Below are positions 9,344-55,413 of a DNA stretch of 64,000 nt, one piece after another (the stretch's first letter is position 1; every line of letters starts with the position of its first letter). A program made the position numbers and the translations under genes. The notes beneath the pieces are model-generated. The model searched no databases. It worked only from the letters and a program-made list of their open reading frames with translations, and had not been told where the DNA came from. Source of the stretch: Sulfitobacter alexandrii (GTDB lineage: Bacteria; Pseudomonadota; Alphaproteobacteria; Rhodobacterales; Rhodobacteraceae); the NCBI RefSeq assembly GCF_001886735.1, contig NZ_CP018076.1, positions 2,852,001-2,916,000 of the forward strand. The letters run 5' to 3'.

Positions 9344-11835
9344 CCGTCGACCCTGATGCGTTCGTTCTTCGGATCGTAGGGGCAGTCCTCCACCACCTCG
9401 GCGTCCCAGAGCTTGTCGAACATCTTGACCTTCAGCTTCGTGCCCACTTCGGCATGTTCCGGCTTCACGTATCCCATGCCGATGCTCTTGCCGAAAGCGA
9501 CCGAATAGCCGCCCGAGGTCAGCCGCCCGGTGCGGCCGTCCGCGTGATACAGCGCCTCGCGACCCCATGGGTCCGCATCCTCGGGCCCGTCGATCAGCAG
9601 CGTGACGCATTTTGCGCGGATGCCGTGATCGGCCATCGCCTGCTTGCCGTGGAAGTCCTTGTTCAGGTCGACGAAGCGCGGCAGATCGGCCTCGAGCGGG
9701 GTCGCGTCGCGGCCCAGTTCGTTGCCGAAGGCGCGGTAGCTCTTCTCCTGCCGCAGCCAGTTCTGCGCCCGTGCGCCCACCAGCTTCATCCCGTGCTTTT
9801 CGCCCGCCTTTTCCAACTGGTCGAAGAGATAGTTCTGCATCTCGATCGGGTGGTGCAGCTCCCAGCCCAGCTCACCGGTATAGGCCACGCGGATGGCGCG
9901 CACCGGGCACATGCCCAGTTCGATGTTGCGCATTGTCAGCCAGGGGAACCGCTTGTTGGACAGCACCGTGTCGGGATCCGCGTCCTTGACGATCTCGCGC
10001 AGCACGTCGCGGGATTTCGGCCCTGCGATGGCGAAGACCCCCCACTGCGTGGTCACGTCGTGGCATTCGATATAGCCGAACTCCGGCGCCTTGTCCTCGA
10101 TCGCCTTGCGCAGGTAGTCGCTGTCGTAGGCCGTCCATGCCCCGGCGCTGACGAGATAATACTCGTGCTCCGCCAGCCGCACGATGGTGTATTCCGTCCG
10201 CGTCGTGCCGTGACCCGTCAGCGCGTAGGTCAGGTTGATCCGGCCGACGGAGGGCAGCTTGTTGCAGGTGAACCAGTCGAGGAACTGCGTCGCGCCCGGC
10301 CCCTTGACCAGGTGCTTGGTGAAGGCCGTGGCGTCGATCAGGCCGACACCCTCGCGGATCGCCTTGGCCTCCTCGACCGCGTACTGCCACCAGCCGCCGC
10401 GCCGGAAGCTGCGGCTGTCGTGATCGTTGAATCCCTCGGGCGCGTAGTAGTTGGGCCGCTCCCAGCCGTTCACATGGCCGAACTGCGCCCCGCGCGCCGC
10501 CTGGCGGTCGTAGGCGGGCGAGGTCCGCAGGGGGCGGCAGGCGGGCCGCTCCTCGTCGGGGTGGTGCAGGATGTAGACGTGTTCGTAGGCTTCCTCGTTC
10601 TTGCGCGCGGCGTATTCCGTCGTCATCCAGTCGCCGTAGCGCTTGGGGTCGAGGCTCGCCATGTCGATCTCGGCCTCGCCATCCACCATCAGTTGCGCGA
10701 GGTAGTAGCCGGTCCCGCCTGCCGCGGTGATCCCGAAAGAGAACCCTTCCGCCAGCCACATGTTGCGCAGGCCCGGCGCGGGGCCGACCAGCGGGTTGCC
10801 GTCGGGGGTATAGCAGATCGGGCCGTTGAAATCGTCCTTCAGCCCGCAGTTCTCGGCGCTCGGGATGCGGTGGTTCATCGCCATGTACTGATCCTCGATC
10901 CGGTCGAGATCGAGCTGGAACAGGTCCGCGCGGAAGCTGTCGGGCACGCCGTACTCGAACCGGGCCGGGGCGTTCTTCTCGTAGACGCCGAGGATCCAGC
11001 CGCCGCGTTCCTCGCGGACGTAGGACTGCGCGTCGGCATCGCGGATCACCGGATGTTCGACGTTGCCTTCATCCTTGCGGAACTTCACCAGCTCGGGGTC
11101 CTGATCCATCACGATGAACTGGTGCTCGACCGGGATCGCCGGCATCTTGATGCCCAGCATCTTCGCCGTGCGCTGCGCGTGGTTGCCGGATGCGGTGACG
11201 ACATGCTCGGCGGTGATGACGATCTGCTCTTCCGAGGGGACGAGATTGCCGCCCCGCTCGACCATCTTCGTCGCGGTCACTTCCCAGTGGGTGCCGTTCC
11301 AGTGGAACGCGTCCGCCTGCCACTTGCGTTCGATCATCACGCCGCGCTGCCGTGCGCCCTTGGCCATCGCCATGGTCACGTCGGCCGGGTTGATGTAGCC
11401 GTCGGTCTGGTGATAGAGCGCCCCCTTCAGGTCCTCGGTACGGATCAGCGGCCACTTCGCCTTGATCTCGTCCGGGGTGAGCCACTGGTAGGGCACGCCG
11501 CAGGTTTCGGCGGTGGACGCATAAAGCATGTATTCGTCCATGCGCTCGTCCGTCTGGGCCATGCGCAGGTTGCCGACGACGGCAAAGCCGGCGTTCAGCC
11601 CCGTCTCTTCCTCGAGCGTTTTGTAGAAGCGGATCGAATAATCGTGGATGTGCGTGGTGGCAAAGGACATGTTGAAATACGGCAGCAGCCCCGCCGCGTG
11701 CCAGGTCGAGCCGGAGGTCAGCTCGTCCCGCTCCAGCAGCATGACGTCCTCCCAGCCCGCGCGCGCCAGGTGGTAGGCGATCGAGGTTCCGACGGCGCCA
11801 CCGCCCACGACCAATGCTTTGACTTGCGTTTTCAT
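9340..11835 (-). CDS. GcvT-type FAD-dependent oxidoreductase (dimethylglycine/sarcosine dehydrogenase-like)
   Basis: An 831-residue two-part enzyme. Residues 1-430 form an FAD-binding oxidase domain: VVGGGAVGTSIAYHL near residue 9 is the dinucleotide motif, and STWHAAGL holds His46, the usual covalent FAD attachment site in this family. From about residue 440 onward is a GcvT-like folate-binding aminomethyltransferase domain with a C-terminal barrel (e.g. VAYTGELGWELHHP, RAFGNELG). Such enzymes demethylate dimethylglycine or sarcosine and pass the one-carbon unit to tetrahydrofolate. The context fits osmolyte (glycine betaine) catabolism common in marine roseobacters; the exact methylamine is uncertain. 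Confidence 0.92.
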   Translation of the reverse strand: MKTQVKALVVGGGAVGTSIAYHLARAGWEDVMLLERDELTSGSTWHAAGLLPYFNMSFATTHIHDYSIRFYKTLEEETGLNAGFAVVGNLRMAQTDERMDEYMLYASTAETCGVPYQWLTPDEIKAKWPLIRTEDLKGALYHQTDGYINPADVTMAMAKGARQRGVMIERKWQADAFHWNGTHWEVTATKMVERGGNLVPSEEQIVITAEHVVTASGNHAQRTAKMLGIKMPAIPVEHQFIVMDQDPELVKFRKDEGNVEHPVIRDADAQSYVREERGGWILGVYEKNAPARFEYGVPDSFRADLFQLDLDRIEDQYMAMNHRIPSAENCGLKDDFNGPICYTPDGNPLVGPAPGLRNMWLAEGFSFGITAAGGTGYYLAQLMVDGEAEIDMASLDPKRYGDWMTTEYAARKNEEAYEHVYILHHPDEERPACRPLRTSPAYDRQAARGAQFGHVNGWERPNYYAPEGFNDHDSRSFRRGGWWQYAVEEAKAIREGVGLIDATAFTKHLVKGPGATQFLDWFTCNKLPSVGRINLTYALTGHGTTRTEYTIVRLAEHEYYLVSAGAWTAYDSDYLRKAIEDKAPEFGYIECHDVTTQWGVFAIAGPKSRDVLREIVKDADPDTVLSNKRFPWLTMRNIELGMCPVRAIRVAYTGELGWELHHPIEMQNYLFDQLEKAGEKHGMKLVGARAQNWLRQEKSYRAFGNELGRDATPLEADLPRFVDLNKDFHGKQAMADHGIRAKCVTLLIDGPEDADPWGREALYHADGRTGRLTSGGYSVAFGKSIGMGYVKPEHAEVGTKLKVKMFDKLWDAEVVEDCPYDPKNERIRVDG

Positions 11836-19640: not shown

Positions 19641-19715
19641 TGGGGTGTAGCCAAGCGGTAAGGCAGCGGTTTTTGGTACCGTGTACCGTAGGTTCGAATC
19701 CTACCACCCCAGCCA
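19641..19715 (+). tRNA. tRNA-Gln (anticodon TTG)
   Basis: A 75-base cloverleaf. The acceptor stem TGGGGTG pairs with CACCCCA and is followed by discriminator G and an encoded CCA. The D arm is GCC...GGC and the anticodon stem is GCGGT/ACCGT with loop TTTTGGT, giving anticodon TTG (codon CAA). The T arm includes GGTTCGAATCC. It marks the left edge of the variable region: native-looking sequence ends here and a recombinase module follows. Confidence 0.95.
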
Positions 19716-19887: not shown

Positions 19888-21528
19888 TTAGAGCGTAGCG
19901 AGGAGTGCGCGCTGCTCTTCCCAAGCCATAGGAAGGTCGTGCCTCAGATACCAATCAGAGGTGAACCCGATCGGCTGTCTGCCGTCCAGAACATCACGCA
20001 CGATGTCTGGGGCCAAGAATGCCAGTCCGATCATCTGCTGGATGCGGCGCTTTGAAGTGCCGTCGGTCTTGGCGATGGCGGCGAAGGTCTCGCCTGATTT
20101 GATCCGCTCGTACCAGGCATGTGCCCTTACGACGTTGCGGATCAGCACCACGTCTCGCGAGCCGGACTGATCGGCGAGGATGATCTTCGTTTCCACGCCG
20201 CGCTTGCGGAGCTGGAACGTGACTCTGATGGAAAGGCAGTCAGGATCGACGTTGTCTGTCTCTGACCCGATGCAGCTTGCGATTTCATCCGGGGATATCT
20301 GGACCAGCATTTCGCCCGGTGACACAACGACCCTCTCGACAAGCTTCAGAAGCTGTGGCTCGCTCACGGTCTCCAAGGCCCCTGATAGCGCGGCATCAAC
20401 ACGACGAACCTGGTCTGCGGTTGCCGCGCGGAGCAGGTCGGCTGCGAAGCGCTGTTCGGACATAGTCAGACGCAGAACGTCAGCCACCCGGCCCTCCAGT
20501 TCTTCTGCAGGCAGACGCCAGCCATCCTGATGGCCGTCGCCGCTCCGGGCCACCAGCCGATGGGACACGTAATACCGCAGGCGCACCCCTTTGCGGGTCT
20601 TGGCATGAGACGGCGTCAGCCGGTCACCTGTTTCATCAAAGAGCTTGCCGCAGAGGTGGGAGCGTCTTTTGGCGGTCTTGTGGCCTCTGCTCTTCGCGGC
20701 CCCTTGCTGCAGAACGTGCTGAACCCGATCCCAGCGCTCTGGATCGATGATCGGATCATGCTGTCCTTCATGGACCTTGTCCTTGTGCCGGATGCGCCCG
20801 GCGTAGATCGGGTTGGTCAGGATGTGATGGATGTGACCCCGGTCGAAAGCGCCGCCACCGGAGACCGTCCCATCTGCGGCAACGCGTTTGCGCGTGCGCA
20901 AGCCGAGCTTCTCTGCATCAGTCTTCACCGCAAGTACTGTGCCATGCACTTCATAGAGATCGTAGAGGGTGCGGATGATCTGGGCCTCGTCGTCCCTGAT
21001 CTTCAGAGTCCGGCCATCCGCATCATAACCCAAGGGCACCTGTCCCCCCATCCAAAGCCCCTTGCGCTTGGACGCGGCGATCTTGTCCCGGATGCGCTCG
21101 GCCGTGACCTCCCGCTCGAACTGCGCAAAGGAGAGCAGCATGTTCAGCGTCAGACGCCCCATGCTGGTTGCCGTGTTGAATGACTGTGTGACAGATACGA
21201 AAGAGGCTTCTGCCGCATCCAGGATATCGACGATCTTCGAGAAATCGGAGAGCGACCGCGTCAATCTGTCGATCTTGTAAACGATGATCTGGTCCACCCG
21301 TCCGCTGGCGACATCGTCGAGCAGTTGTTGCAAGGCAGGACGTTCCAGACTGCCACCTGATAGGCCACCGTCATCGTATGGGTCAGGCAGAAGTACCCAG
21401 CCTTCGTGCTTCTGACTGGCGACATAGGCCGCACAGGCCTCTCTTTGGGCATGCAGGGAGTTGAACTCCTGTTCCAGACCATCCTCGGAGGACTTTCGGG
21501 TGTAGATGGCGCAGCGGATCTTCTTCAT
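19888..21528 (-). CDS. Large serine recombinase (resolvase/integrase family)
   Basis: A 546-residue site-specific recombinase. The resolvase catalytic domain begins RCAIYTRKSSEDGLEQEFNS, with Ser13 as likely nucleophile, and continues through IIVYKIDRLTRSLSDF and FAQFEREVTAERIRDKIAASK. A 'Recombinase' domain follows (GHIHHILTNPIYAG near residue 255), then a C-terminal DNA-binding and helical part. The ATG at 21528 is preferred because it gives the canonical N-terminus and overlaps the upstream DUF2924 gene by ATGA. It probably integrated or excises part of this region. Cys residues of the usual zinc ribbon are sparse. Confidence 0.92.
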   Translation of the reverse strand: MKKIRCAIYTRKSSEDGLEQEFNSLHAQREACAAYVASQKHEGWVLLPDPYDDGGLSGGSLERPALQQLLDDVASGRVDQIIVYKIDRLTRSLSDFSKIVDILDAAEASFVSVTQSFNTATSMGRLTLNMLLSFAQFEREVTAERIRDKIAASKRKGLWMGGQVPLGYDADGRTLKIRDDEAQIIRTLYDLYEVHGTVLAVKTDAEKLGLRTRKRVAADGTVSGGGAFDRGHIHHILTNPIYAGRIRHKDKVHEGQHDPIIDPERWDRVQHVLQQGAAKSRGHKTAKRRSHLCGKLFDETGDRLTPSHAKTRKGVRLRYYVSHRLVARSGDGHQDGWRLPAEELEGRVADVLRLTMSEQRFAADLLRAATADQVRRVDAALSGALETVSEPQLLKLVERVVVSPGEMLVQISPDEIASCIGSETDNVDPDCLSIRVTFQLRKRGVETKIILADQSGSRDVVLIRNVVRAHAWYERIKSGETFAAIAKTDGTSKRRIQQMIGLAFLAPDIVRDVLDGRQPIGFTSDWYLRHDLPMAWEEQRALLATL

Positions 21529-21929
21529 GTGCTGCCCCTGCCCGTAAGACCGAAAAAGCGCGGCCCCGACCAGGCCGTGCCTGTGATATGTTTGGCGATG
21601 GCGGAGAGCGATGGCCAGATGCGGCCATCCATCAGGAAACCGCCCTCGAGAACATCGACATGATAGCTGCGCCCGTTCCATTCGCGCACCAACCGTGCAC
21701 CGCTGTTGAGCCTTTCCGGACCGGCAGCGGCGACGTCTTCTCCCTCCGCGATCTTCAGTAAGGCCCGCCGCGTCGCTGCGGGCAAACCGCCTGCCCGCTT
21801 GCACTGCCGTTCATACCCGACCGCCTTCTGCATAAAGGCAACCGACAGGTACGCTGGCGGAGGCGATCCGAAGATCGCCTCCCAGTCCGTCAGCGCCGCT
21901 GCGCGATCCGGGTCCCGCTTACCCGGCAT
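21525..21929 (-). CDS. DUF2924 domain-containing protein
   Basis: A 134-residue basic protein. FGSPPPAYLSVAFMQKAVGYERQCKRAGG and the later GARLVREWNGRSYHVDVLEGGF with FLMDGRIWPSLSAIAKHITGTAWSGPRFFGL (shown in parts) match DUF2924, a small family that travels with serine recombinases in alphaproteobacteria. Function unproved; DNA binding or recombination accessory is a reasonable guess. The start overlaps the DUF3489 gene by 11 bases and the stop overlaps the recombinase start by ATGA, so all three are made from one message. Confidence 0.87.
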   Translation of the reverse strand: MPGKRDPDRAAALTDWEAIFGSPPPAYLSVAFMQKAVGYERQCKRAGGLPAATRRALLKIAEGEDVAAAGPERLNSGARLVREWNGRSYHVDVLEGGFLMDGRIWPSLSAIAKHITGTAWSGPRFFGLTGRGST

Positions 21930-22221: not shown

Positions 22222-22601
22222 GTCGGTCTCCTCAGATCATCAGCGGAGACATTCCGCTGCTACTGAGCAAAGCCCGGACTCTTCGGGCAGCGCACGCAAA
22301 TGCGGTCGAGCGCAACGACAGTACCGCTCGAAAGGCAAAGCAAGTCCAGTGGGTTCTCGGACGAAATCGAGAACCGTTCGCAGGCGCAGCAAAAAGCACC
22401 ATAGGCGGGAACCGGACTTTCGCTGCGATGGCGAACCGGATCAGTCTTAGTGAAAAAGCCGACATCCAACACGTTTGATTTAGCATCATGAAACCATCTT
22501 GTTTCGGGGACCAAGTTTCCTTGATTGATGGCGCTTCGAATGCGGGTGCTTTATCATAAGAGCAGCTCGCCCATTCGAACGAACTAAAAAGGCTACAGTA
22601 A
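22222..22601. other. Intergenic region between the recombinase cassette and the STAND gene
   Basis: 380 bases between divergent genes. It must hold both promoters, but no pair of -35/-10 boxes with normal spacing was convincing; TTGATT (22521) and TATCAT (22552) are too far apart. AAAAGG just before 22602 is the ribosome-binding site of the STAND gene. Base composition becomes AT-richer toward 22.5 kb. No RNA gene or repeat seen. Confidence 0.4.
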
Positions 22602-25600
22602 ATGCCTGCGACCACACGTCAAACTGCCGGACCGGGGTACAACTTTGAAGATCTGACTTCTGCTTGGCTAATCTCAAAGATGTTGATAGGGCAAAGGTTG
22701 CAAGGCGTCGGAACGGAAGGCGCAATCTTGCAGTCTCAGACTAAGTCCATCGGCTGGATAATCGATGACCTTTTAGTTTCGACCCAAAACGGGGCCAGCC
22801 ACCTTGCGGTGTCATGCAAGGCTAACTTTCAAGTTTCAAGCAATGGATTGCCGAGGGATTTTGTCGACCTCGCCTGGAAGCAATGGAAGACTGACGGCGG
22901 TTCAATGCAAAACAATGCGGACTGCTTAGGCCTCGTAACAAGGGGGAGGCATCCCGCATTCGATCCTGTTTGGGCTGATATTGTAAACTGGGCAAAAAGC
23001 TCCGATGAAGAACTCGCGCTGACTAGAATAAGAGCCACTAGCAAACACTCAAGAATTTTTGACAGTATCAAAAGCCCGGCCGGTTCAGCTGTGCCAACAG
23101 ATCTTGAAACGCTTCGACTAGTACAGCGGCTTATAGTCGTCCCGCTGGATTTCCAGCTGGATCAGTCAACATCTGAGGCCGAAGCCATTAGCCGTTGCAG
23201 GCAGTTGATTCAAAGCGGTTCGCAACATGACGCAGAGAATGTCTGGAAAGAATTAGTCCAGATTTCTGAGGAGACTCGGTTAGGCTCTGGAACAATTGCA
23301 ATCAGTGCGGTTTGGGACAGACTTCGACCCAAGTATGAGCTCAAAGACCGCCCCAATTTTGAGAGTTCTTGGGAGTCGTTGAGAGCCTTATCCCGAGACA
23401 GCCAAGCCGGGATTCAAAGTGAGTTACCCTCCGGCTTTTCCTTACCTCGTTCGAAAGCAAAGGACGCTCTTAGAGACCTAGTAGAAGCCCATCAAGTGAC
23501 CGTGGTTGTTGGTGAGTCAGGAACGGGAAAATCAGCCCTTGTAAAAAATACGCTTGATGAGAAATTCCCCACCCCCAGTCAGATATGGCTTGGTCCTGAG
23601 CATGCCAAAGCACTCACTTCGGAACTGGGACGCAGAAAAATGGGCGTCGTCCACGATCTGGCCAGTGTACTTATGACGGCACCAAGCCAAACCAATGTAT
23701 TGGTTTTGGATGCAATCGAAAAACTTGATCTGGATGCATTGTCTCGCATGAAGACGCTCACCGATGAGCTCTTGAACCGAGCAAAACCTGAATCTGTGGA
23801 CTTCTGGCGCATTGTGGTTGTCTGTCAGACAGAAGCTTGGCGCGAGCGGGTTCAAATGGAGTTGAAAAAGTACTCTAAAGCCACGCTTCCCTTAGCAACG
23901 ATTCAACCAGCTGAAGTCAAGGAAGCTCTTCGTTCTAGCGCGGAACTAAGATGGCTCTCGTTCCGAGAGGAAGCAGTTTCTGCTCTCACCAACCTAAAGA
24001 CATTAAGCTGGGTAATGAGAGCGGCTGGGGTGTTTGATGAGGGTAATGACGAGCTAACTACACCCACTGCGTTCGTCGACGGTATCTGGCAATTTTGGAC
24101 AGAAGGTCAAGTTGGTCCACAGAACCTCTTAGTCCGACTTGCAGAGCGAGAGGCCAATTTCGAGCGTAGCTTTGCGATAAGTGAATTAGATGCCACCGAT
24201 GCGCAAATATTCCAGGAGAAGACTCAGTATCTACCCTTAAGAAAGAACCACCGAAACCGAATAGAGTTCGAACATGATCTTGCCGCTGAATGGGTAAGAT
24301 TTCAGAGGCTTAAGGAGATTTCGCACGATATCGAAAGCTGGTCACCGCTGGCGGAGAACCCGCTTTGGACTGGATCTTTAAGGCTGCTGGGTCAGTTCTT
24401 GCTACGACAGCGAACAGAAGCGTCAAATGAATGGATCGAAGCTTTCACCCAACTAGAACGCCAAGGCGCTACTTTGCCAGCGGACATTCTCTTAGATTCG
24501 GTATTCCTTGACCCACAAGCCACTAAGTTCCTGTTTGAAAACAAAACATTTCTATTCGAGAAGAACGGCAAATACCTGCGAAGACTACTTCAAAGGTTCC
24601 TGCAGGTAGCTACTGTTCCAGATGTACCCTCAGGAATAGCTGAAATTGATCAAGACCTCGAGCTCTACATGGAAGCGCAGCATCGCTTCCCTATACTCGC
24701 ATACTGGCCACCGATGGCATACTTTCTGCATCAGAATATCGAACTTGTAGCAGACCTAGTGTCTCCAATCGTGGCACAGATATGCGGCACATGGTGCTCG
24801 AAGATGCCAAGGGAACTATCTGACGGCTCAGCCATGCCTTGGCGAAGAGAGTTTGCAGAGATTGCATTGGCGACAGCTCGATCACTTCAAGTCGATCAGG
24901 GCAAGGCGTCAAAATATCTTGGCGACGGTGAGCGACCTATCTACAAAGCCGCGTTCGCCAGCGTATCTGACCTTCCGGATCAAGTCGCCTCTTGGGCACT
25001 GGAAGTTAGCCAACGACGGGCAGAAGACCCTGATGTCGTCCTTAGGATTGAAAGAGCAAAGTCTGAATTGGCTCGAGAACACGCGGAAAAAATAAAGTCT
25101 GATCCGGAGTATCGAAAGCGTGAAGCGGATCGGAGATCTCGTCGGGCTTCACTTCCCTCGTTCATAGACAGCTCGGAACCATTGCCACCGTGGCCGTTGG
25201 GTCCACAAGATCGAATTGAAAACGACTTTCAGCACGTCGTGCTACATGATGATGTGTTGTTGCCGATGATGTCTCAGTTGCCGGAAATTGCTTCAGAGGT
25301 CTTGTTGGCTAACTTAATCGAAGCAATTCCACGGCGAGATTTTTCAAGATCGACATACCGTGACAACGTTGGGCTGAACTTTGATCACACCTATCCGACA
25401 ATTTTCTGGAAAAGCCCATTCTGGCGTTTTTTTCAGGTCCAACCGGCAGAAGCATTGTCCACGTTGATCGAGCTCATAAATTTTGCAACCGATCGTTGGT
25501 CTTACGCCTCGACTCTCGATGGAGATCGCGCGCCACCAAGCACCTCGCTAACCATGAAAGACGGTTCTACTAAAGCGTTTATCGGAAACTGCGACTTATA

Positions 25601-27821
25601 CGATTGGTCGCAAAAAAGCTCAACTTCGAACGGTCAGTTGCACTGTGCTTTGAATGCGCTTGAAAAATGGCTCGTTTCTCAACTTGAGGGCGACGCTGAC
25701 ATCCAAAAACAGATCGAGGAAATCTTCGAAACAAGCCATTCGCTTGCGCTCATTGGAGTACTTGTGAACGTGGGTAAACACACGCCTGAGCTCTTCTGCG
25801 GGCCGCTTCTCCCATTGGCTGGATGCGAGCGCGTGTTTCTGTTTGATGAAGGAAGATTGAAGAACTCCAGCTTCTTCGATGCGTTCACTTGGTCGAGGGC
25901 CGGCGAAGTCGCGTTTAATATGGCCCGAGACTGGGCTGCTGCGGCTTACAGGCAGAGAAACCTTGTCGAAGTTGTAGTGACCCAGATGGCAAGGAACAGC
26001 CGGTTTGCCTCTTCCGTAAAGGCTACAACAGATAAATGGGTTGCTCCACGTGATCAAAAGGCCAGCCTGGAACACCGAATACTGAAAGCTCAATTAGACC
26101 CAGCGAACTATACTTTCACGACAGAGACTGATGAAATCCATTTTGCTTTGCCAAGCGAACTGCTCGCAGACGTTGAGTCATTTCAGCGGAATGGCAGTCT
26201 TCAGCTGGCCAAGTTAATGCTCGCGGACAACTGTCGGCGGGCTCTCGCTCAGAAGGCAGATCTACCCGATGCTGAAGCTTCTTATCTGTGGGACATTCTG
26301 TGTGCTCCTGAAGTAAGCACGGAACAAGAAGATGAAGGGAGGCAGAACCTCAACAAAGCGTCTGCCGCTGCAGTGCTAACGGTATTAGGCTCATCTTGGT
26401 TGCGGCGAGATCCTGGTAGGGAAGTATTTGTCAAAGACTATTTGCGGAAGCAGATCGAAGCTATCGAAAACGTTCCCCATTTCGGTCGGGATGGTTTTTA
26501 TCACATTGATCAACGGCTTGAGTTTTTAGCACATTCGGTTTTTCACCTTTGGTGCGAAAGCACCGACGAACTTGCAGAATGGGAAACGGCCCTCCTTCAG
26601 GTCCTAACTTCAGGTGACAATAAGGCTGCCGGAGTGATCGGGGCGCTTGCGTACCGAGATCGCCGTAAACTCGGTCAGTCGTGGTTTCGCATCATCCAAA
26701 TTGGGGTCTTCTGGTCCGCACTAACAATGCTTGAACCCGAGAGAGACGACTCCGATGCAGTGAAGACACGTTGGAACCGCTGGCGTGTTTGGCTCTGTCA
26801 AAAAAAGATTTCAGAGGTTGATAGTCAAATATCTGGCATTGATTTTTTGGGCGTTTGGAACCTGCAAAAGAAGCTCGAGAAAGAAAGATGGCGCAGAGCT
26901 TACGAGGCTAGAGACAAGCTCTGTATCAGAAGCCCTGAAGAGCGATTGTCTTTTGGTCTTGATACTCAGTTTCTGTCGAGTTTTCTTCATTGGCTGACGC
27001 AAACGGACACTGAACACGATGCAGAAACGTCCGAGATAGCCTCTGAAATACTTCTGTCTTCGTTTCAATATCAGGCTGCCTACTGCAAGGAGCATATGGA
27101 TGAGCGCGGAGAGTTTGGACTTCCGCCGCAGTTTGGCTACGACGTTATTCAAAGACTTGCGTTTGAATGCGCGCGAACTTCAGACGACAATGCAATGAGT
27201 ATCTACAATGCCGTCTTGAGTCTGGGGCCTGCGGCTGATCACATTATCGACCATTTCTTAGGATCTTGGTTTATCCAGTTGCATAAACTGCTGGATACCG
27301 ACGCGTTCTGCGATCGCTGGAAGTCGATGATTCAGTTTGGCGTGGAAAGGCGGTGGTCCGAAGGTGGGAGCTGGTACGATGAGCAGAAGCTCCTTCGAAA
27401 ATTGCTCGGTTTTGAATATTCCTCTTCATTGCAGAACGTTCCCGATCTGGATGCCAAGCTCGAGAACATGTCCAAACTTTATGAGTATTGGGCTACGAAT
27501 AACCTCAGAAAGGACGAGGAGAACGTTTCTTGGTTTGCTTGCTTCCTTAAGTCAGGTTCAGGTAGAGCCCTTCGAATTAATGGGCTCAAATGGCTTGCGG
27601 CAAGCCTAACGAATGGCGAAAAGAAGCAGTACTGGCGCGACAGTAGGGACACAGGTTCCAGCCTTGTTGATCTCATCGACAAGGCTTTTCGAGATCAAAA
27701 AACTACCTTCCAAACGGATCCGTTGGCGCGGCATGCGATCGTGAAGTTGAGCGCTCTACTAGTCTCAAAGCAGATACCGGGTGCAATGTCTCTGCAACAG
27801 AAGATATCAACGCTTCGCTAG
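22602..27821 (+). CDS. Very large STAND-like NTPase with possible N-terminal nuclease domain (putative antiphage protein)
   Basis: A 1739-residue protein, strikingly AT-richer than the flanks. The N-terminus (GYNFEDLTSAW, then WIIDDLLVS with Asp55-Asp56 and AVSCKAN with Lys73) resembles the spaced D...xxK core of PD-(D/E)XK nucleases of the DUF4297/Cap4 or Mrr type. The NTPase has Walker A GESGTGKS (304-311) and Walker B NVLVLDAIEKL (Asp370). After it come a WLSFREEAVSAL segment and more than 1000 residues rich in alpha-helix without obvious repeats. This order, nuclease-NTPase-long helical sensor, is that of Avs/STAND antiviral ATPases. That role is inferred; a catabolic or signalling STAND cannot be excluded. 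ATG preceded by AAAAGG. Confidence 0.85.
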   Translation: MPATTRQTAGPGYNFEDLTSAWLISKMLIGQRLQGVGTEGAILQSQTKSIGWIIDDLLVSTQNGASHLAVSCKANFQVSSNGLPRDFVDLAWKQWKTDGGSMQNNADCLGLVTRGRHPAFDPVWADIVNWAKSSDEELALTRIRATSKHSRIFDSIKSPAGSAVPTDLETLRLVQRLIVVPLDFQLDQSTSEAEAISRCRQLIQSGSQHDAENVWKELVQISEETRLGSGTIAISAVWDRLRPKYELKDRPNFESSWESLRALSRDSQAGIQSELPSGFSLPRSKAKDALRDLVEAHQVTVVVGESGTGKSALVKNTLDEKFPTPSQIWLGPEHAKALTSELGRRKMGVVHDLASVLMTAPSQTNVLVLDAIEKLDLDALSRMKTLTDELLNRAKPESVDFWRIVVVCQTEAWRERVQMELKKYSKATLPLATIQPAEVKEALRSSAELRWLSFREEAVSALTNLKTLSWVMRAAGVFDEGNDELTTPTAFVDGIWQFWTEGQVGPQNLLVRLAEREANFERSFAISELDATDAQIFQEKTQYLPLRKNHRNRIEFEHDLAAEWVRFQRLKEISHDIESWSPLAENPLWTGSLRLLGQFLLRQRTEASNEWIEAFTQLERQGATLPADILLDSVFLDPQATKFLFENKTFLFEKNGKYLRRLLQRFLQVATVPDVPSGIAEIDQDLELYMEAQHRFPILAYWPPMAYFLHQNIELVADLVSPIVAQICGTWCSKMPRELSDGSAMPWRREFAEIALATARSLQVDQGKASKYLGDGERPIYKAAFASVSDLPDQVASWALEVSQRRAEDPDVVLRIERAKSELAREHAEKIKSDPEYRKREADRRSRRASLPSFIDSSEPLPPWPLGPQDRIENDFQHVVLHDDVLLPMMSQLPEIASEVLLANLIEAIPRRDFSRSTYRDNVGLNFDHTYPTIFWKSPFWRFFQVQPAEALSTLIELINFATDRWSYASTLDGDRAPPSTSLTMKDGSTKAFIGNCDLYDWSQKSSTSNGQLHCALNALEKWLVSQLEGDADIQKQIEEIFETSHSLALIGVLVNVGKHTPELFCGPLLPLAGCERVFLFDEGRLKNSSFFDAFTWSRAGEVAFNMARDWAAAAYRQRNLVEVVVTQMARNSRFASSVKATTDKWVAPRDQKASLEHRILKAQLDPANYTFTTETDEIHFALPSELLADVESFQRNGSLQLAKLMLADNCRRALAQKADLPDAEASYLWDILCAPEVSTEQEDEGRQNLNKASAAAVLTVLGSSWLRRDPGREVFVKDYLRKQIEAIENVPHFGRDGFYHIDQRLEFLAHSVFHLWCESTDELAEWETALLQVLTSGDNKAAGVIGALAYRDRRKLGQSWFRIIQIGVFWSALTMLEPERDDSDAVKTRWNRWRVWLCQKKISEVDSQISGIDFLGVWNLQKKLEKERWRRAYEARDKLCIRSPEERLSFGLDTQFLSSFLHWLTQTDTEHDAETSEIASEILLSSFQYQAAYCKEHMDERGEFGLPPQFGYDVIQRLAFECARTSDDNAMSIYNAVLSLGPAADHIIDHFLGSWFIQLHKLLDTDAFCDRWKSMIQFGVERRWSEGGSWYDEQKLLRKLLGFEYSSSLQNVPDLDAKLENMSKLYEYWATNNLRKDEENVSWFACFLKSGSGRALRINGLKWLAASLTNGEKKQYWRDSRDTGSSLVDLIDKAFRDQKTTFQTDPLARHAIVKLSALLVSKQIPGAMSLQQKISTLR

Positions 27822-27829
27822 CTTTGCGT

Positions 27830-29395
27830 TTAATCGTATTGCCCGCGAATGTAGCCATGATCAGGAACGGGCATTGACACAACGATGCCATCGTCACACC
27901 GAGATTTAATGGCTTCCGCGAATACGATAGTGTCAACCAAATAGAATATCGCGGAGCGAGCGAGCTTCAGCGAGTCGAGCGTCAGACGCTCAAATTCGGT
28001 GATATCCTGATGGTCCACTGCGAGGGAAGGCGACTTGCGTTCTAGTTTGCCAAAATCATGAAGGACTGTGAACCGGTGCGTGGATGCATTGCGGTAACTT
28101 TTGTGCGCCTCCAAGATTCCTAGCCCTCGGCTGTCGTCGTTGGACATGTCATGAAAAATGTTGTGCAGCGCAACCAAGCCGAAATTGCCTGTGGCAAGAC
28201 ACTGAGCGATTTCATTGTGGAGTCGAAACGCCCCCCCTTTTTCTTGCCTACCCCACAAGCCGGCAAAACTCACCTTATGTGCTTTGGGCATTTTCAAATA
28301 GCAAGCGATAGCCACGGCAATCTTGTCCAGTATGTCAAAGGCAATACGCTGTGCGCTGGTTAGCGCTGAATAGCGAACTCCGTAGAGCGAGTAGTCCAGT
28401 GTATCGGCGTGAGTTGTTGTCTCTAGATACGGTGTATCGATGTCAAATTCGTGGGTTTCGAAGAAGACCTGGCGTGCGAAAGCAAAGTCCGCCTTCATTA
28501 CGTTCAGCATGGCGTAGATTTCAGGCACTCCATCTTCGTCCTCAAAGGATCTTGTGATTCTTGGGATTGTTAGGACGTCAAAGAGTCCCGACGCATAACC
28601 CGCCGAGCTACAGTACAGGTACAGGGCGAGATCGTTTTCTGAGATGAACCGAAGGTACGGTTGTTCGATAGTTTCTTGCGGATTGGGCGGGATCGAACCT
28701 GCCATCTCGATTTGTTTTCGCAGATATGGGACCCCAGTGTTGCCGGAGAAGGCGACAAAAGTCTCAAAGTTCTGTTCCGCGTACCCACCCAATGCACGAA
28801 ACCTCTCTGTGAGCGTTGGCAGGTGCGCGTAGGTCTGATAGGTGTCCGGCTCGCTCTGGAAAAGCTGTGCGAGTTGCTGAAGCAAGGTCATTTCCTTGAG
28901 CATGGCGACGGCATTCTTTGGGTATATTCGCTGTGCAGCGCGAAAGTAGTCCAATGCTTCGATCCACCGCGAGGTATCTTGTAAGAGTGTCCCCATGTTA
29001 GTCAGCGCCTGTGAGGCTAAGTCTATCGGGGAGTTCTTCGATCTAGCTGCTTGACCAAAGAGAATTCTAGCCTGGAAATGGTCTTCGAACGATTGACCAC
29101 AAAATGGTGAAGATGGCCCGTAGGTTAATCTCGCACGAGACTGCAGACCATTCGCGAGATTATAGGTTAAGCTTGGGTCAGGATTGGCATTTTTGCGCAA
29201 TGCCTCCAGCGTTTTCACTCCCTTGTCGACCGTAGCAAGATTTTCTAAGCGCCCGCCGCAATCGATGAGAATAGCGGCTGCGGCAAAGGCTTCCGCCGGA
29301 CTTTCTCCGAGTTCGGAAACCCGAGCCAACGCAGCAGATGGGTTTTTATCTGCGAGAGTAGTTAGCTCTTCAATCATTTGGGCATTCTTAGACAT
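27830..29395 (-). CDS. LA2681-type HEPN domain protein with N-terminal TPR-like region
   Basis: A 521-residue protein. Residues 70-200 read as TPR-like helical hairpins (LASQALTNMGTLLQDTSRWIEALDYFRAAQRIYP in pieces). The C-terminal domain around 335-500 resembles the LA2681-like HEPN family: YSLYGVRYSALTSAQRIAFD, FAGLW, then the RNASTH motif (Arg435-Asn436, His440), which in active HEPN proteins is the RNA-cutting site, followed by RFTVLHD. It is convergent with the STAND gene and the two stop codons are 8 bases apart. HEPN proteins are common RNase effectors of defence and toxin systems; the target is unknown. Confidence 0.85.
   Translation of the reverse strand: MSKNAQMIEELTTLADKNPSAALARVSELGESPAEAFAAAAILIDCGGRLENLATVDKGVKTLEALRKNANPDPSLTYNLANGLQSRARLTYGPSSPFCGQSFEDHFQARILFGQAARSKNSPIDLASQALTNMGTLLQDTSRWIEALDYFRAAQRIYPKNAVAMLKEMTLLQQLAQLFQSEPDTYQTYAHLPTLTERFRALGGYAEQNFETFVAFSGNTGVPYLRKQIEMAGSIPPNPQETIEQPYLRFISENDLALYLYCSSAGYASGLFDVLTIPRITRSFEDEDGVPEIYAMLNVMKADFAFARQVFFETHEFDIDTPYLETTTHADTLDYSLYGVRYSALTSAQRIAFDILDKIAVAIACYLKMPKAHKVSFAGLWGRQEKGGAFRLHNEIAQCLATGNFGLVALHNIFHDMSNDDSRGLGILEAHKSYRNASTHRFTVLHDFGKLERKSPSLAVDHQDITEFERLTLDSLKLARSAIFYLVDTIVFAEAIKSRCDDGIVVSMPVPDHGYIRGQYD
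28231..28237. repeat. C7 homopolymer next to T5 inside the HEPN gene
   Basis: CCCCCCCTTTTT on the plus strand reads AAAAAGGGGGGG in the coding strand (codons for Glu-Lys-Gly-Gly-Ala, near residue 386). A one-base slip would truncate the protein before its RNASTH motif. Confidence 0.6.
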
Positions 29396-29560
29396 TCTTG
29401 GGTTTCATACTTCACTATTTTTGGGGTCTTGGACCACACTACGCGGCCGTGCCTAGCCAATGTTCTGGCTATTGTGGGCATTGTTAGAATCTGCTTTTGG
29501 GGGGCGCTGCAATGCAGAGCACCTAGTCCGAGTCAATGTTGGCTCTGAGCTGAGCGTACA

Positions 29561-30040
29561 TCAGTAGGCTCCGCAAAAGCTGGTGTGAAGGACATCATCC
29601 TCCTTAAGCACTTGATCAACCAAATAGAGCGCTGCCCGGATTAGATCTGCGTTGCGATTGCTATCAGGATCGCCGCTCTTTCCTCCATGTAAGAGGTTGT
29701 TCCGGACCCCGTTTAGTGCGGCGATCAGCTCCTGAACGGATACAACCTCGCCACGGTCCTGCCAGCTCAGGTGACCACTGTCATCGACAATTTGCTTCTT
29801 GGGCGGGGCGTGTATGAGCACCTGAACTTCGTCTGCACGTTTGATCCTATGCCAGAAATCGGCACCTAGTTGATCGTTAGCGAAACGAACCCAATCCACT
29901 TCTGCTACCGCCCTTCGACCTGGAACAAAGAAACCCACGTCTTTGAGGGCGAATTCTAGACGCATCATAATATTAAACAGGCGACTGGCCTCGTCCGAGA
30001 CATCATCTATTTTGGAGTAGTCCACTTCTGGGACTGCCAT
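29561..30040 (-). CDS. Small HEPN-like protein
   Basis: A 159-residue protein of unassigned family. A helical N-terminus (EASRLFNIMMRLEFALKDVGFF) and the motif GVRNNLLHGGK (Arg113-Asn114, His118) fit the HEPN pattern RN(x)3H. The start ATG at 30040 is preferred, with AAGG 9 bases upstream; the frame stays open to 30118. It may be a second RNase or an RNA-binding partner in this defence-like block. It is on the same strand as the LA2681 gene, 165 bases upstream of it. Function inferred from one motif. Confidence 0.7.
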   Translation of the reverse strand: MAVPEVDYSKIDDVSDEASRLFNIMMRLEFALKDVGFFVPGRRAVAEVDWVRFANDQLGADFWHRIKRADEVQVLIHAPPKKQIVDDSGHLSWQDRGEVVSVQELIAALNGVRNNLLHGGKSGDPDSNRNADLIRAALYLVDQVLKEDDVLHTSFCGAY

Positions 30041-30187
30041 TCCACACATCCTTGTACAACATCTGCCTTGGATCGGAGTTTGAAGCGGGTTCAGGCTTTC
30101 AAACACTGATTGGATCACGAATGACCGCTTTGCGAAAGCTGCAATGCGGCAATAGCAAGTTTAGCGGACGTCTGTTTTGGGCCGATT

Positions 30188-31207
30188 TCAGACACGTTCG
30201 CCTGCGTGTTTCGACGTGTTGATTGCGGCAGCCTCGGCCTCGAACGCGCGTGAAACATCAGCTGCTGCAGACTGACTGGCCCGGATCCGTCGACCGTAGC
30301 GAGCCGGCATCTCGGGGGAGGTCCACCTGCCAGCCACCATGATTGATGACAGATCGCAACCTAGCTTGAATGCATCATGGACGCCGCCTACGCGCGTGCT
30401 GTGCGCAGATACATCCCTGCGACCGGTACAGCGTTTGATGATGTTCGAGATCGTGGTCGTGTGGAGCGGAATTCTCTTTCCACCCGCTTGGGATTTCATA
30501 AGCAGGGGCTCGTCGAGCTGCAGCTTCGCCAGCTCTATCCAGTCCAAGACAGCGCGTGTCCCGCGGCCCGATAGAAACGCATAGGCGCCTTCACCGAACT
30601 GATCCGTCTTTGAACGGCGGACATAAAGGAGGCTGGAATCGTCATCTTGCCGGATCAGGTCCTGGACCTTGAACGCTGAAATCTCGGATGCGCGGCACCA
30701 GCTATCGGTGGCGATCCACAGAAGTGCTTTATCCCGTATGTGGCGCCGGGAATTCCCAAGCCTCTCGATTGCCTGCACCACCTCCCGTTTCGTCAAAGGC
30801 GGGGCCTGCCTGACGTGAGCACCGTATTTTCGCTTCACGCCTTTCAGGGCTAGGTCGACCAAGCGGTGCCTGGTTGGCGACGGAAGAAAGTGGGACCGAT
30901 GCAGCTCTGCGATCGCCCAGAGCCGGGTTTCGATGGAATTGGCCGCCAGCTTGCCCCCCATCTCGTCGACCCATTGCGCGAGGATCCTTGGATCGATCGG
31001 AGGTACAGCAGAGTACTCTCTCTCCTCACACCATTGCCGGAACAGCCGAATGACCATCCGATAGTTTCTCAGCGTCTCAGGGGCGAAGGCTGCTTCGGAT
31101 CTCTGACGATACTCGGCGATGAGATCTTCTCGACGATCGGCAGCTGTGTTGGCCAAGGTCGTGAGCATTTCTGCACGCTCGGATTGGCGATCGAAAACAA
31201 GCTTCAT
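30188..31207 (-). CDS. Tyrosine recombinase/integrase
   Basis: A 339-residue phage-type integrase. Residues 25-110 form the core-binding (SAM-like) domain. The catalytic set is nearly complete: Arg172 in SWCRASEIS, Lys200 in RRSKTD, His269 and Arg272 in AHSTRVGG, Trp295 in GRWTSPEM in place of the usual His, and nucleophile Tyr304 in ARYGRR. It could mobilise the defence block or be a XerC/D-like remnant of an older element. It is the second recombinase family in the region, which suggests a composite island. Confidence 0.92.
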   Translation of the reverse strand: MKLVFDRQSERAEMLTTLANTAADRREDLIAEYRQRSEAAFAPETLRNYRMVIRLFRQWCEEREYSAVPPIDPRILAQWVDEMGGKLAANSIETRLWAIAELHRSHFLPSPTRHRLVDLALKGVKRKYGAHVRQAPPLTKREVVQAIERLGNSRRHIRDKALLWIATDSWCRASEISAFKVQDLIRQDDDSSLLYVRRSKTDQFGEGAYAFLSGRGTRAVLDWIELAKLQLDEPLLMKSQAGGKRIPLHTTTISNIIKRCTGRRDVSAHSTRVGGVHDAFKLGCDLSSIMVAGRWTSPEMPARYGRRIRASQSAAADVSRAFEAEAAAINTSKHAGERV

Positions 31208-42510: not shown

Positions 42511-44349
42511 TCACTTTCCCGCGGCTTGCGGCGGCGGGGTGTCAACGTACCAGCAGCGTCGCCTGTCAAATGGGTAGCCCGGCAGGTCGGGGGCTGTTGG
42601 GTCCGCCGCTGTCACGGCGCGGGTATCAAGCGCCGCACCGGCAAGATGCAGGCCAAGCAGGGCTGCCGGGATCTCTCCGGTCGGGCAACGGACGGTGACA
42701 GCGCCGTTGCGACCGGCATCCGGTGCAACGAGGTCCGGGCAGGCTCGGCAAAGGGTTTCAAACGCGGCGTGGGACAACGGTTCCGGCGTTTCAAGCATGA
42801 CAGGCCCCACAAGGCGTTCGGGGACTTGCGTCGGCTCGGACGTGATCTTGCCCGCCGCCGCCCTGGCCTCTGCGATGGTCCCTGCCTGAAACCCTGCGCG
42901 CAGGCTCAAACCGACCCAGCGGCGCGTTACCATGGCCGACAATTGGCGCAAGCAGACCTGCGGATTGTCCAGTGCGACAAGAAGCTGTCTTGCCCGGTTG
43001 CATAGCGCCGCAGGACTGGCGGCAGAGAGTAAGAAAAGGTGGCCACCTGCTGTTGATCGGGCGATAGCGCTGGGCGCTGCCACTGCACAGTCTTCGGCAG
43101 AACAGACGATCGCATGGCAATTCAACCCGCTGATGCCGAACGAGCTGACACCTGCAATCCGGCGAGGGCTTTGCCATGGCCCTGTGCTTAGCGGCACGTG
43201 AAGCGGAAGCGCTTTCCAGTCGATTCGAGGGGAAGGGTTTTCAAAACCTGACTGTCCCGGCAGCATGTTGTCCCGCACCATCAAAACCGCCTTGATCAAG
43301 CCCGCAATGCCCGCTGCCGCTTCCAGATGGCCGACAGCGGCCTTGATCGACCCAAGCGCGGCGGAGGGATGCTTTCTGTCGGCAAAGACCTCTGCCAGCG
43401 CCAGTGTTTCGATTGCGTCGCCAACTGCTGTTGCGGATCCATGCGCCTCGATTGCGCCGATATCGTCCACCGTTACCCCGGCAGACCGCATCGCCCGTGT
43501 GATGACCCGGACCTGTCCTGCGCGGGACGGAGCGCTCAAGCCGTTGCTGCGCCCATCCTGGCCGGTTGCCCAACCCGGCAAAACGGCGTGGATGCGGTCA
43601 TGATCGGCCAGCGCATCCGGCAGCCGCTTGAGAACCACGATCCCGCAGCCCTCTGACCGGACGAACCCATCCGCACGCGCTTCGAAAGGATGTGTCTGGC
43701 CCGTCCGGGACAAGACATTCATTTTCCCCAATGCCATGAAACCGGCTGGATTCAGGAGCACATTGACACCGCCAGCCAACGCAATATCGCAGTGGCCCAG
43801 GCGCAGCGCGTCACCCGCCTGGGTCACGGCTGTCAGTCCTGAAGAACAGGCCGTATCCACTGTCAAAGACGGCCCGGTCAGGCCAAGGCAGTAACTGACC
43901 CTGCCGGAAACTGCGGCGTTCTGCACAGCATTTGGCAGATGAGCATTGCCGGAAAATCCCGTTGTGCGCGCTATCTGCATCGCATGATCGGACGATGCCA
44001 CGCCGACATAAACGCCGGCGGAAGTGCCGTCGAGATTGGCAGGAGACAGGCCCGCGTCCTCCAGCGCATGCCAGGCCATTTCCAGGACCAGGCGCTGCTG
44101 GGGGTCCAGCAAGGGCGCTTCGCTGCCAGAGATGCGAAACGGGTGGCGATCAAAACTGTCGATGTTGTCCACCAGCCCCACCGCCCGGACCGGCAACCGT
44201 TCCGTTCCCATAAGAGCCAGACGTGCCGACGGGACGGGACCGGTTCCGATGCGGCCGGTCCGCAACATGTCCGCCAGATCCGCCACGGAATCTGCCCCCG
44301 GAAACCGACAGGCCATGCCAACAACTGCAATGGGGACCCGATCCATCAT
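42511..44349 (-). CDS. Type I polyketide ketosynthase without acyltransferase
   Basis: A 612-residue protein. The beta-ketoacyl synthase domain (residues 4-440) has the Cys168 nucleophile in DTACSSG, His303 in EAHGSAT (variant of EAHGTGT) and His341 in AVGHLEAAAG. After residue 440 come about 170 residues ending in YPFDRRRCWYVD, the post-acyltransferase linker motif of modular PKSs, but the GHSxG acyltransferase domain is missing. A malonyl unit would therefore have to come from an acyltransferase elsewhere, or this KS extends or transfers a chain loaded by the neighbouring ligase. Overlaps the ligase gene by 4 bases. Confidence 0.9.
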   Translation of the reverse strand: MMDRVPIAVVGMACRFPGADSVADLADMLRTGRIGTGPVPSARLALMGTERLPVRAVGLVDNIDSFDRHPFRISGSEAPLLDPQQRLVLEMAWHALEDAGLSPANLDGTSAGVYVGVASSDHAMQIARTTGFSGNAHLPNAVQNAAVSGRVSYCLGLTGPSLTVDTACSSGLTAVTQAGDALRLGHCDIALAGGVNVLLNPAGFMALGKMNVLSRTGQTHPFEARADGFVRSEGCGIVVLKRLPDALADHDRIHAVLPGWATGQDGRSNGLSAPSRAGQVRVITRAMRSAGVTVDDIGAIEAHGSATAVGDAIETLALAEVFADRKHPSAALGSIKAAVGHLEAAAGIAGLIKAVLMVRDNMLPGQSGFENPSPRIDWKALPLHVPLSTGPWQSPRRIAGVSSFGISGLNCHAIVCSAEDCAVAAPSAIARSTAGGHLFLLSAASPAALCNRARQLLVALDNPQVCLRQLSAMVTRRWVGLSLRAGFQAGTIAEARAAAGKITSEPTQVPERLVGPVMLETPEPLSHAAFETLCRACPDLVAPDAGRNGAVTVRCPTGEIPAALLGLHLAGAALDTRAVTAADPTAPDLPGYPFDRRRCWYVDTPPPQAAGK

Positions 44350-46424
44350 GTTTCTGGCGCTTTCATGCGGGCTGCCAGGGTCGTTGCCAACAGGCGCGGG
44401 TCGGAAAGATCAAAGAGCTCTTCGGTCAGTACTTGGGCCCCGATCGCGCTTTCAAGGTCAAGCAACAGGTCGGTCATCATCAGTGAATCAAGTCCTTGGT
44501 CGCTCCAGGGCAGATCGGGATCGACCTCGTCTAAAGGGGCATCTGTGGCGGCAGCGACCCATGCCAAAAAGAAATCGAGCAGGCCAACAGCATCCGGCGG
44601 ACCGTGCCGGGCTGTCTCGGCCAGTGCCCTGATTGCGACAAGCTGGGTTTGCCTCGATTTCGAGAGATCCGGCCTCCAATCGCACAGCACCTGCTGCGGC
44701 GCGCTTTGCAGCCGGGCAAGGCTGGCGCTGCGCCTGATCTTGCCACTCGATGTCCATTGCAACGTGCCGGGCCGAACCAGCACCACACGATCCGCCTCGA
44801 CCCCGGTTTCCGCCATCAGCCGCCGCCAAAGACGCGATGCAAGGTCTATGTGGTCGTTGTTCTCTGCCGTCACAGGCGCGGTGTCCCGGTTGGGTGAAAT
44901 CTCTGCCATGACCACGACTTCATTCTCGCTGGTTTGCCGAAGCGAAATGCGGCTGCGACGAACATGGGGTTCTGCCCCATCCAGAACCAGTTCAAGATCG
45001 GCGGCATGCAAGCTACGTCCGTGCCACAGCACGATGTCTTTCATCCGCCCGGTGACAAAAAGCTCGTCATCAAGCAGGAACCCGGTATCGCCACTGCGAA
45101 GGTAGGGACCTTCCCCCGTTGCCGTATAGGCACCGAAAGTCCTTCGGCTGTCTTCGGGCAATCCCAGATAGCCGCTGCCCATGCTATCCCCTGCAATCCA
45201 GATCTCCCCGATCCGGTTCGGCGGGCAGGGATGTAGTGTATCGGGTGCAACGATCTTTACACCACCTGTTGTCCGGACCGGCCCGGAAGAAACAAGGCAG
45301 CGGCCCGTGCCGCTCTTGGTGGTGACGACGCTGCCCTGTTCCATTGCCTTGGGGTCGAACCATCGGGATGTGGCCCCTTTGCCCCGACTTGCACCGGAGA
45401 CCAGAAGCGTGGCTTCCGCCAATCCATAGCAGGGCAGGAATGCCTGTGGCTCGAAACCACACTCCGCAAAGGCTTGCGCAAAATTGTTCAACGTCTTCGA
45501 CTGCACCGGTTCGGCCCCGTTCAATGCTGTCCGCCACGCGCGCAAGTCCAGCTCGGACCTGCGGGTTTGCGGGATTGTCCGCACACAAAGATCAAAGGCA
45601 AAGTTCGGTGCAACCGAGATGGTTGCCTTGAAACGGCTGATCGCTTCCAGCCACCGAATAGGCCGTTTGATGAATACGGTCGGAGAGAGCACGTAGGTGA
45701 TACCCCCGTACCAGAGGTTGAACAGCAATCCGCCCATCAGCCCCATGTCATGTTCCGGCGGCAGCCAGGTCAGGGCCCGCTCTTCTGCGCGTGGTTGTAC
45801 CGCTGAGGCAATCGCCTGCTGCACCGCAGTCAGGGCGGCGTGCGTCACCATTACCCCGCGCGGCGCGCTGGTTGAGCCGGAGGTATATTGCACGATCGCA
45901 ACGTCCTTGGGATGGATAACCGGCAGCGGCACGTCCCCTTGTGCGGCTCCCAGCTTTGCAAGGTCGTCGATGCGGAGCAAGCTATGCCCCTCAAACAGAC
46001 CGTCTGCCGCTGCCGCATCAATTTCCGCTTGGCTCGCACCTGTCAGAATTGCCACGCAACCGGCCTTTTGTAGGATCGCTGCTGCACGCGACCGCATGGC
46101 GGACCCTGCCGGTAAGGCGACAGGAACTGCGGCACATCCTGCCATGAGAATGGCGATAAGCCCGGTCACGAAGGCAGGCCCATGACTGCACATCAGGGCG
46201 ACCCTCTCCCCTTTTCCACAGCCCACCACCAAAAGCCCCTGCGCCATGGTGCGCGCGTTATCTCCCAGAGCACCATAGGTCAGTTCCTGCGATGGACCTG
46301 CGGGGGTCAGGTAATGAAAAGCGACCTCTTCGGTCCGGGATTGCGCATGCGACATGACAACCGCAGGCAATAAGTCGCCGGAAGCCAGACCAGGGCGGCG
46401 CGCGATATCGGCAATGTCCGTCAT
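44346..46424 (-). CDS. Fatty-acyl-AMP ligase (FAAL) with C-terminal acyl carrier domain
   Basis: A 692-residue adenylating enzyme. AMP-binding motifs: QYTSGSTSAPRGVMVTH (residues 179-195), WLPPEHDMGLMGG (FAAL signature near 220), and YLRSGDTGF. It ends in a carrier domain with the phosphopantetheine Ser647 in GLDSLM. FAAL enzymes activate fatty acids as acyl-AMP and load them on a carrier, giving the starter unit for a ketosynthase. The next gene in the operon is exactly such a ketosynthase. The substrate chain length is unknown. A 62-base gap separates it from the divergent SGNH gene. Confidence 0.92.
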   Translation of the reverse strand: MTDIADIARRPGLASGDLLPAVVMSHAQSRTEEVAFHYLTPAGPSQELTYGALGDNARTMAQGLLVVGCGKGERVALMCSHGPAFVTGLIAILMAGCAAVPVALPAGSAMRSRAAAILQKAGCVAILTGASQAEIDAAAADGLFEGHSLLRIDDLAKLGAAQGDVPLPVIHPKDVAIVQYTSGSTSAPRGVMVTHAALTAVQQAIASAVQPRAEERALTWLPPEHDMGLMGGLLFNLWYGGITYVLSPTVFIKRPIRWLEAISRFKATISVAPNFAFDLCVRTIPQTRRSELDLRAWRTALNGAEPVQSKTLNNFAQAFAECGFEPQAFLPCYGLAEATLLVSGASRGKGATSRWFDPKAMEQGSVVTTKSGTGRCLVSSGPVRTTGGVKIVAPDTLHPCPPNRIGEIWIAGDSMGSGYLGLPEDSRRTFGAYTATGEGPYLRSGDTGFLLDDELFVTGRMKDIVLWHGRSLHAADLELVLDGAEPHVRRSRISLRQTSENEVVVMAEISPNRDTAPVTAENNDHIDLASRLWRRLMAETGVEADRVVLVRPGTLQWTSSGKIRRSASLARLQSAPQQVLCDWRPDLSKSRQTQLVAIRALAETARHGPPDAVGLLDFFLAWVAAATDAPLDEVDPDLPWSDQGLDSLMMTDLLLDLESAIGAQVLTEELFDLSDPRLLATTLAARMKAPET

Positions 46425-55277: not shown

Positions 55278-55413
55278 GGCTGGCTCCATTGCTGTGGCTG
55301 CTCGCAGACAGAGTCACTCCGACTGCCTCGTTCGTAAGATATATCTACCGTCTGGCCAAATGTCAAATCCACGCGTATGGTTGCGTCAGACGAGGAAAAC
55401 AAAGAGGCTATCC

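Follow-up and report, generated by a model that had tools for sequence, protein, structure and literature searches.

The locus raises the question whether an open reading frame of 1,739 codons, located in a 64 kb stretch of DNA (the whole of which is here called the window), encodes an antiphage protein of the Avs/STAND type, and if so how it relates to the named families of such proteins. The frame starts with ATG and is the longest among the 97 ORFs listed for the region from 12 to 40 kb. A full-length search with the protein returned 54 proteins including itself, and the frame extends far beyond chance because 42 of the 53 other homologs cover 94–100% of it at 34–89% identity. In comparison with the copy in an uncultured Pseudoruegeria (L002), changes at third codon positions (281) outnumber those at the other positions (125 and 70), and dN/dS is 0.19. 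The open frame that an initial annotation of the window had proposed is thus real, and it represents an undisrupted gene kept under purifying selection. No sign of positive selection was seen in the sensor; dN/dS against L002 lies at 0.12–0.22 in all six segments. Synonymous divergence between the copies is uneven (0.07 to 0.47 across windows of 100 codons), a pattern suggestive of exchange between copies and not of adaptive change. The G + C content is 0.49–0.50 over most of the gene and 0.61–0.70 in the left flank (12–22 kb), but the right flank is low as well (0.51–0.58, to about 34 kb). The contrast with the flanks, to which the initial annotation had pointed, is therefore one-sided. The gene and its surroundings comprise the following features (positions in the window):

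19641–19715: tRNA-Gln gene (ARAGORN) beside the serine recombinase gene
19888–21804, minus strand: large serine recombinase (PF00239, PF07508), island context
22406–29550: block of 7.15 kb with the upstream region, the STAND gene and the HEPN gene, 91.8% identical to L002, with unrelated flanks
22438–22499: non-coding stretch of 62 bp upstream of the STAND gene, identical to L002 in the alignment
22602–27821, plus strand: STAND gene, 1,739 amino acids
22602–23357, plus strand: effector, a Cap4/DUF4297-type PD-(D/E)XK nuclease domain, residues 1–252 (D55, D56, K73)
23358–24521, plus strand: STAND NTPase with NACHT/NLR-like subdomains, residues 253–640 (Walker A 304–311, Walker B D370, H558-D559)
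24522–27818, plus strand: helical sensor with the Avs4 sensor fold, residues 641–1739
27830–29395, minus strand: TPR and HEPN_LA2681 protein of 521 amino acids (PF18733, 1.1e-39), tail-to-tail with the STAND gene
29561–30118: gene of 185 amino acids outside the shared block, with an RX4H motif (RNNLLH) recognized by eye only
30188–31207, minus strand: tyrosine integrase (PF00589, PF02899), island context

AF2 models and fold comparisons revealed the architecture of antiviral STAND proteins, with an N-terminal effector, a central STAND NTPase and a C-terminal sensor. The initial annotation had read a D-D...SCK motif (Asp55-56, Lys73) as that of a DUF4297/Mrr-like nuclease and had suggested modelling of the N-terminal residues. 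In the AF2 model, residues 1–252 have a PD-(D/E)XK fold of the Cap4/LmuA type with conserved acidic residues and a conserved lysine. Among 138 homologs of at least 1,600 amino acids, D55 and D56 are present in 131 and K73 in 132, the remainder being alignment gaps, and not one substitution occurs at these positions. Walker A (GESGTGKS, 304–311) and Walker B (LVLDAIEKL), likewise picked out beforehand, fared as well, K310 and D370 being retained in 138/138 of the same homologs. Pfam and fold comparison place the NTPase with the NLR type; in the Pfam scan of the protein nSTAND1 fell just below its cut-off (4.8e-6; 26.9 of 27.1 bits), the other matches were to weak P-loop families, and no SAVED family was found.

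The more than 1,000 residues of sensor-like helices announced for the C-terminus correspond to residues 641–1739, which were modelled as helical with the Avs4 sensor fold. When this model was compared with known structures (Foldseek, VIA-align), Avs4 scored far above the other chains among the matches listed, and the fold match spans 989 residues, from the end of the NTPase through the sensor. Avs3 was not among the 50 matches listed, which leaves room for a resemblance to it. Homology to Avs4 runs from about residue 260 onward, with an identity of about 15% in the profile alignment; the Avs4 chain 8dgf_B aligns from residue 7 of the model of residues 1–640, so that the N-termini may also be related in fold. 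An Avs protein appeared among the PDB structures matched by profile search only, and the PDB search with the single sequence yielded no Avs protein, its best match being an RNA helicase (E 0.022).

Assignment to Avs4 itself (AVAST type 4, PDB 8dgf) was considered and rejected, because the score lies below the cut-off and the protein forms part of a separate clade. The NCBIfam model for Avs4 (NF041815) gave 46.2 bits (E 9.8e-13) against a curated cut-off of 1,500 bits, and the annotated Avs4 of E. coli (L029), used as control, reached 2066.8 bits; the PADLOC Avs4 model gave 1.3e-7. In a tree rooted at its midpoint, in which some distant rows have long branches, the four Avs4-group rows formed one clade (100/100) and the STAND protein belonged to a separate clade of 17 rows (100/100). 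The effector of Avs4 is Mrr-like, and an HMM of the family's N-terminal nuclease matched none of the four Avs4-group rows. Most likely, the STAND protein is therefore part of an unnamed sister group of Avs4 that carries a different DNA-cutting domain, in line with the earlier remark that no named subfamily was recognizable. As to true Avs4 nearby, one of 209 phylum-sample genomes matched the Avs4 model (E 1e-20), partially and under the cut-off, and none of 14 control genomes did. One Avs4-group protein, on a Haliscomenobacter plasmid (L032, 744–5711), has an N-terminus that by eye resembles a trypsin-like protease and not a nuclease.

A second search, with residues 600–1757 of the family member P0018 as query, found 197 proteins, 120 of which were listed; named members among the matches listed belong to the alpha-, beta- and gammaproteobacteria and the myxobacteria. 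The STAND gene had no match at E 1e-20 in 393 other sampled genomes of the host's family, a single match among 384 other genomes of the class sample (E 1e-30), and matches in five of 397 other genomes of the phylum sample (E 1e-10), all of them distant (22–24% identity in the main matches). The family is thus rare and patchy in distribution. Several members lie on plasmids or next to recombinases, one is carried by an IMG/VR contig (L010), and no match was obtained among 50,697 phage records. The effector can be exchanged: in P0045, encoded on a contig of 10 Mb, a nucleoside phosphorylase domain stands before the same NTPase and sensor, the kind of swap that a modular protein of sensor and effector should show. 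Three relatives (P0114, P0115, P0118) have an XRE-type HTH (PF01381) before the nuclease, perhaps for autoregulation. In a distant member on a Geminocystis plasmid (L026, 5943–10757), Walker A is preceded by no more than about 100 residues, so that a fused effector is almost absent; the annotations of its neighbors name NACHT and type I restriction proteins. In another distant relative (genome G650; L011, L016, L017) an ORF of 326 amino acids, transposase-like by eye, splits the nuclease part from the remainder. The open-licence literature, which excludes most subscription papers, yielded no experimental report on the family, nor by title any phage-defence paper using the names ‘Avs6’ to ‘Avs9’.

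The gene has moved as part of a block. A blastn comparison of L002 with the whole window (E 1e-10) recovered the 7.15 kb block as a single HSP, and the rest of the 25 kb of L002 gave no further match to the window at this threshold. In an uncultured Roseobacter (L003), a truncated relative has its left edge at window position 22413, within 7 bp of the block edge; this copy (10001–11805) ends after about residue 602, and the stretch examined contains no match to the HEPN gene of the window. The 62 bp at 22438–22499 are more conserved than most of the adjoining coding sequence and, judged from the alignment, are probably regulatory or the edge of the moving block. A repeated mobile element as origin of the upstream segment was rejected, since 22405–22600 is single-copy in the genome and has no plasmid match. 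The adjoining recombinases that the initial annotation had pointed out, the serine recombinase and the tyrosine integrase, both have Pfam support. The tRNA-Gln gene was considered as the source of an attachment repeat and rejected, its 3' end (14–25 nt) not being repeated within the window. At 53263–55289, on the far side of the low-GC region, a DUF5681 gene and a ParB/DNA-methylase gene are perhaps phage remnants, and genes that by eye encode a polyketide synthase ketosynthase and an AMP-binding ligase lie at 42511–46424.

Two HEPN-type genes had been claimed beside the STAND gene. For the 521-amino acid protein this is borne out by Pfam, and its RX4H motif (RNASTH) was recognized by eye; the gene at 29561–30118, in contrast, matched no Pfam family, even with the threshold relaxed to E 10. 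Joint action of the STAND and TPR-HEPN proteins, with the HEPN RNase as second effector or modulator, is an unlikely explanation of the locus. It would fit the tail-to-tail arrangement of the pair in two genomes with unrelated flanks (in the window 8 bp separate the stop codons, and the HEPN copy in the same place in L002 is 96% identical) and the excess of third-position changes in both genes (37 versus 10 and 6 in the HEPN gene). However, the two genes are convergent and do not form an operon, none of 10 Pfam-scanned neighbor proteins at other close-family loci (L004–L009, L022) has a HEPN domain, and a HEPN gene copy of 80–81% identity occurs in genome G986 (L021, 10682–12247) without this STAND gene, which weakens the idea of an obligate partner. 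The latter copy adjoins genes for a NACHT protein of 1,529 amino acids, an AAA_16 protein of 1,240 and a DUF4238 protein of 812, and owing to these NACHT and large NTPase genes the HEPN gene may accompany NLR-like genes more generally.

PADLOC was also run, with no background control, on 11 neighbors picked by eye at seven other close-family loci (L002, L004–L008, L022). Strong hits were obtained at three loci: Dsr2 in L004 (5.6e-131), a type IV restriction enzyme in L007 (5.6e-18) and PDC-M57B in L022 (1.2e-62). The neighbors scanned in L002, L005, L006 and L008 gave no hit, nor did six neighbors in the window, and six proteins from L021 and the distant relatives L023 and L024 gave weak hits only (best 1.1e-6).

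On this evidence, the initial view of the gene as a candidate Avs/STAND antiphage protein is strengthened by the modelled three-domain architecture, the Avs4-type sensor and the intact nuclease and NTPase motifs. With good confidence, it encodes an Avs-type antiviral STAND protein with an Avs4-homologous NTPase and sensor and a Cap4-type nuclease effector. What counts against this reading is the low identity to Avs4, the single-sequence PDB search that yielded no Avs protein, the neighbors without a PADLOC hit, and a rare family for which the open-licence literature gave no experimental report. Such a protein would be inactive at rest. Its C-terminal sensor would recognize a conserved protein that the phage produces while infecting the cell, the portal being the likeliest candidate by the example of Avs4, which was solved with the phage portal in 8dgf. 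ATP binding would then drive oligomerization, in keeping with 8dgf, where the Avs4 sequence is present as four chains, and the clustered nucleases would cut double-stranded phage and host DNA and abort the infection. The nucleases of Avs1–4 kill by cleaving phage and host genomes (PMC12931631).

The chances that the portal is the ligand, judged by analogy with Avs4, are roughly even. Somewhat below even is the probability that an Avs-type STAND nuclease here responds to something else, be it terminase, a further phage protein or a change that infection brings about in the host. The low identity to Avs4 means that the ligand may have changed, conservation within the family is lowest at residues 1201–1300 of the sensor, and related Avs families sense differing proteins, namely terminase in Avs1–3 and portal in Avs4 (PMC12724215) and, in the Sir2 NADase Avs5, a jumbo-phage protein and not portal or terminase (PMC12931631). 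Nevertheless, the fold match to Avs4 includes the sensor and not the NTPase alone. The same resemblance to a protein solved with a phage portal makes it very unlikely that the protein defends against plasmids or other mobile DNA and not against phages, even if competition among elements would be expected where members reside on plasmids or beside recombinases. STAND NTPases include regulators, and three relatives carry the HTH mentioned above, but a chromosomal regulator of transcription or stress is extremely unlikely in view of the invariant acidic and lysine residues of the nuclease domain, the lack of the gene in the other sampled genomes of the host's family and its transfer as a block; a housekeeping role was rejected on the patchy distribution and the nuclease motif.

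A further point counts against the antiviral reading with a portal sensor. The host genome contains three Phage_portal genes, which such a sensor would have to spare unless they are silent; the same genes allow a direct test of whether a portal sensor can tell self from non-self. PMC13236601 describes a CARD-NLR-like system working together with gene transfer agents. A decidedly unlikely scenario would join all these elements: an unnamed Avs family that keeps the Avs4 portal sensor and swaps its effectors (Cap4-type nuclease, once nucleoside phosphorylase), travels in a block with a TPR-HEPN RNase as second arm, and discriminates the phage portal from the three portals of its own genome, one possibly of a gene transfer agent. 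The family adds a large branch to the pattern-recognizing STAND immune proteins, one that current defence models match weakly despite the Avs4-like construction of its sensor. Since effectors differ among relatives (nuclease, phosphorylase, the short N-terminus in L026), these offer a ready-made series in which to examine whether the ligand is determined by the sensor alone.

Among known systems, the nuclease is likened to those of Cap4 (the CBASS effector, 6wam/6vm6), LmuA (Lamassu, 9hr5) and HerA-DUF4297 (9c1m). In those systems the nuclease is linked to SAVED or forms a subunit of another complex, whereas in the present protein it shares one chain with a STAND NTPase and sensor; in particular, the chain beyond the nuclease is filled by these two domains and not by the C-terminal SAVED sensor of cyclic oligonucleotides found in Cap4. 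From bacterial NACHT/NLR-like proteins (bNACHT) and animal NLRs the protein differs by its Avs4-like sensor and in that its best Pfam NTPase match is nSTAND1 and not NACHT. As to Avs3 (AVAST type 3, PDB 8dgc), whose ligand is terminase (PMC12724215), both comparisons made with residues 1–640 gave Avs4 as the better match. The protein shares with Avs4 the sensor fold and the homology of NTPase plus sensor, but differs from it in the score below the NF041815 cut-off, the separate clade and the family nuclease HMM without a match in the four Avs4-group rows. The Avs architecture itself is already known; what is new is that a Cap4-type nuclease is joined here to an Avs4-type sensor.
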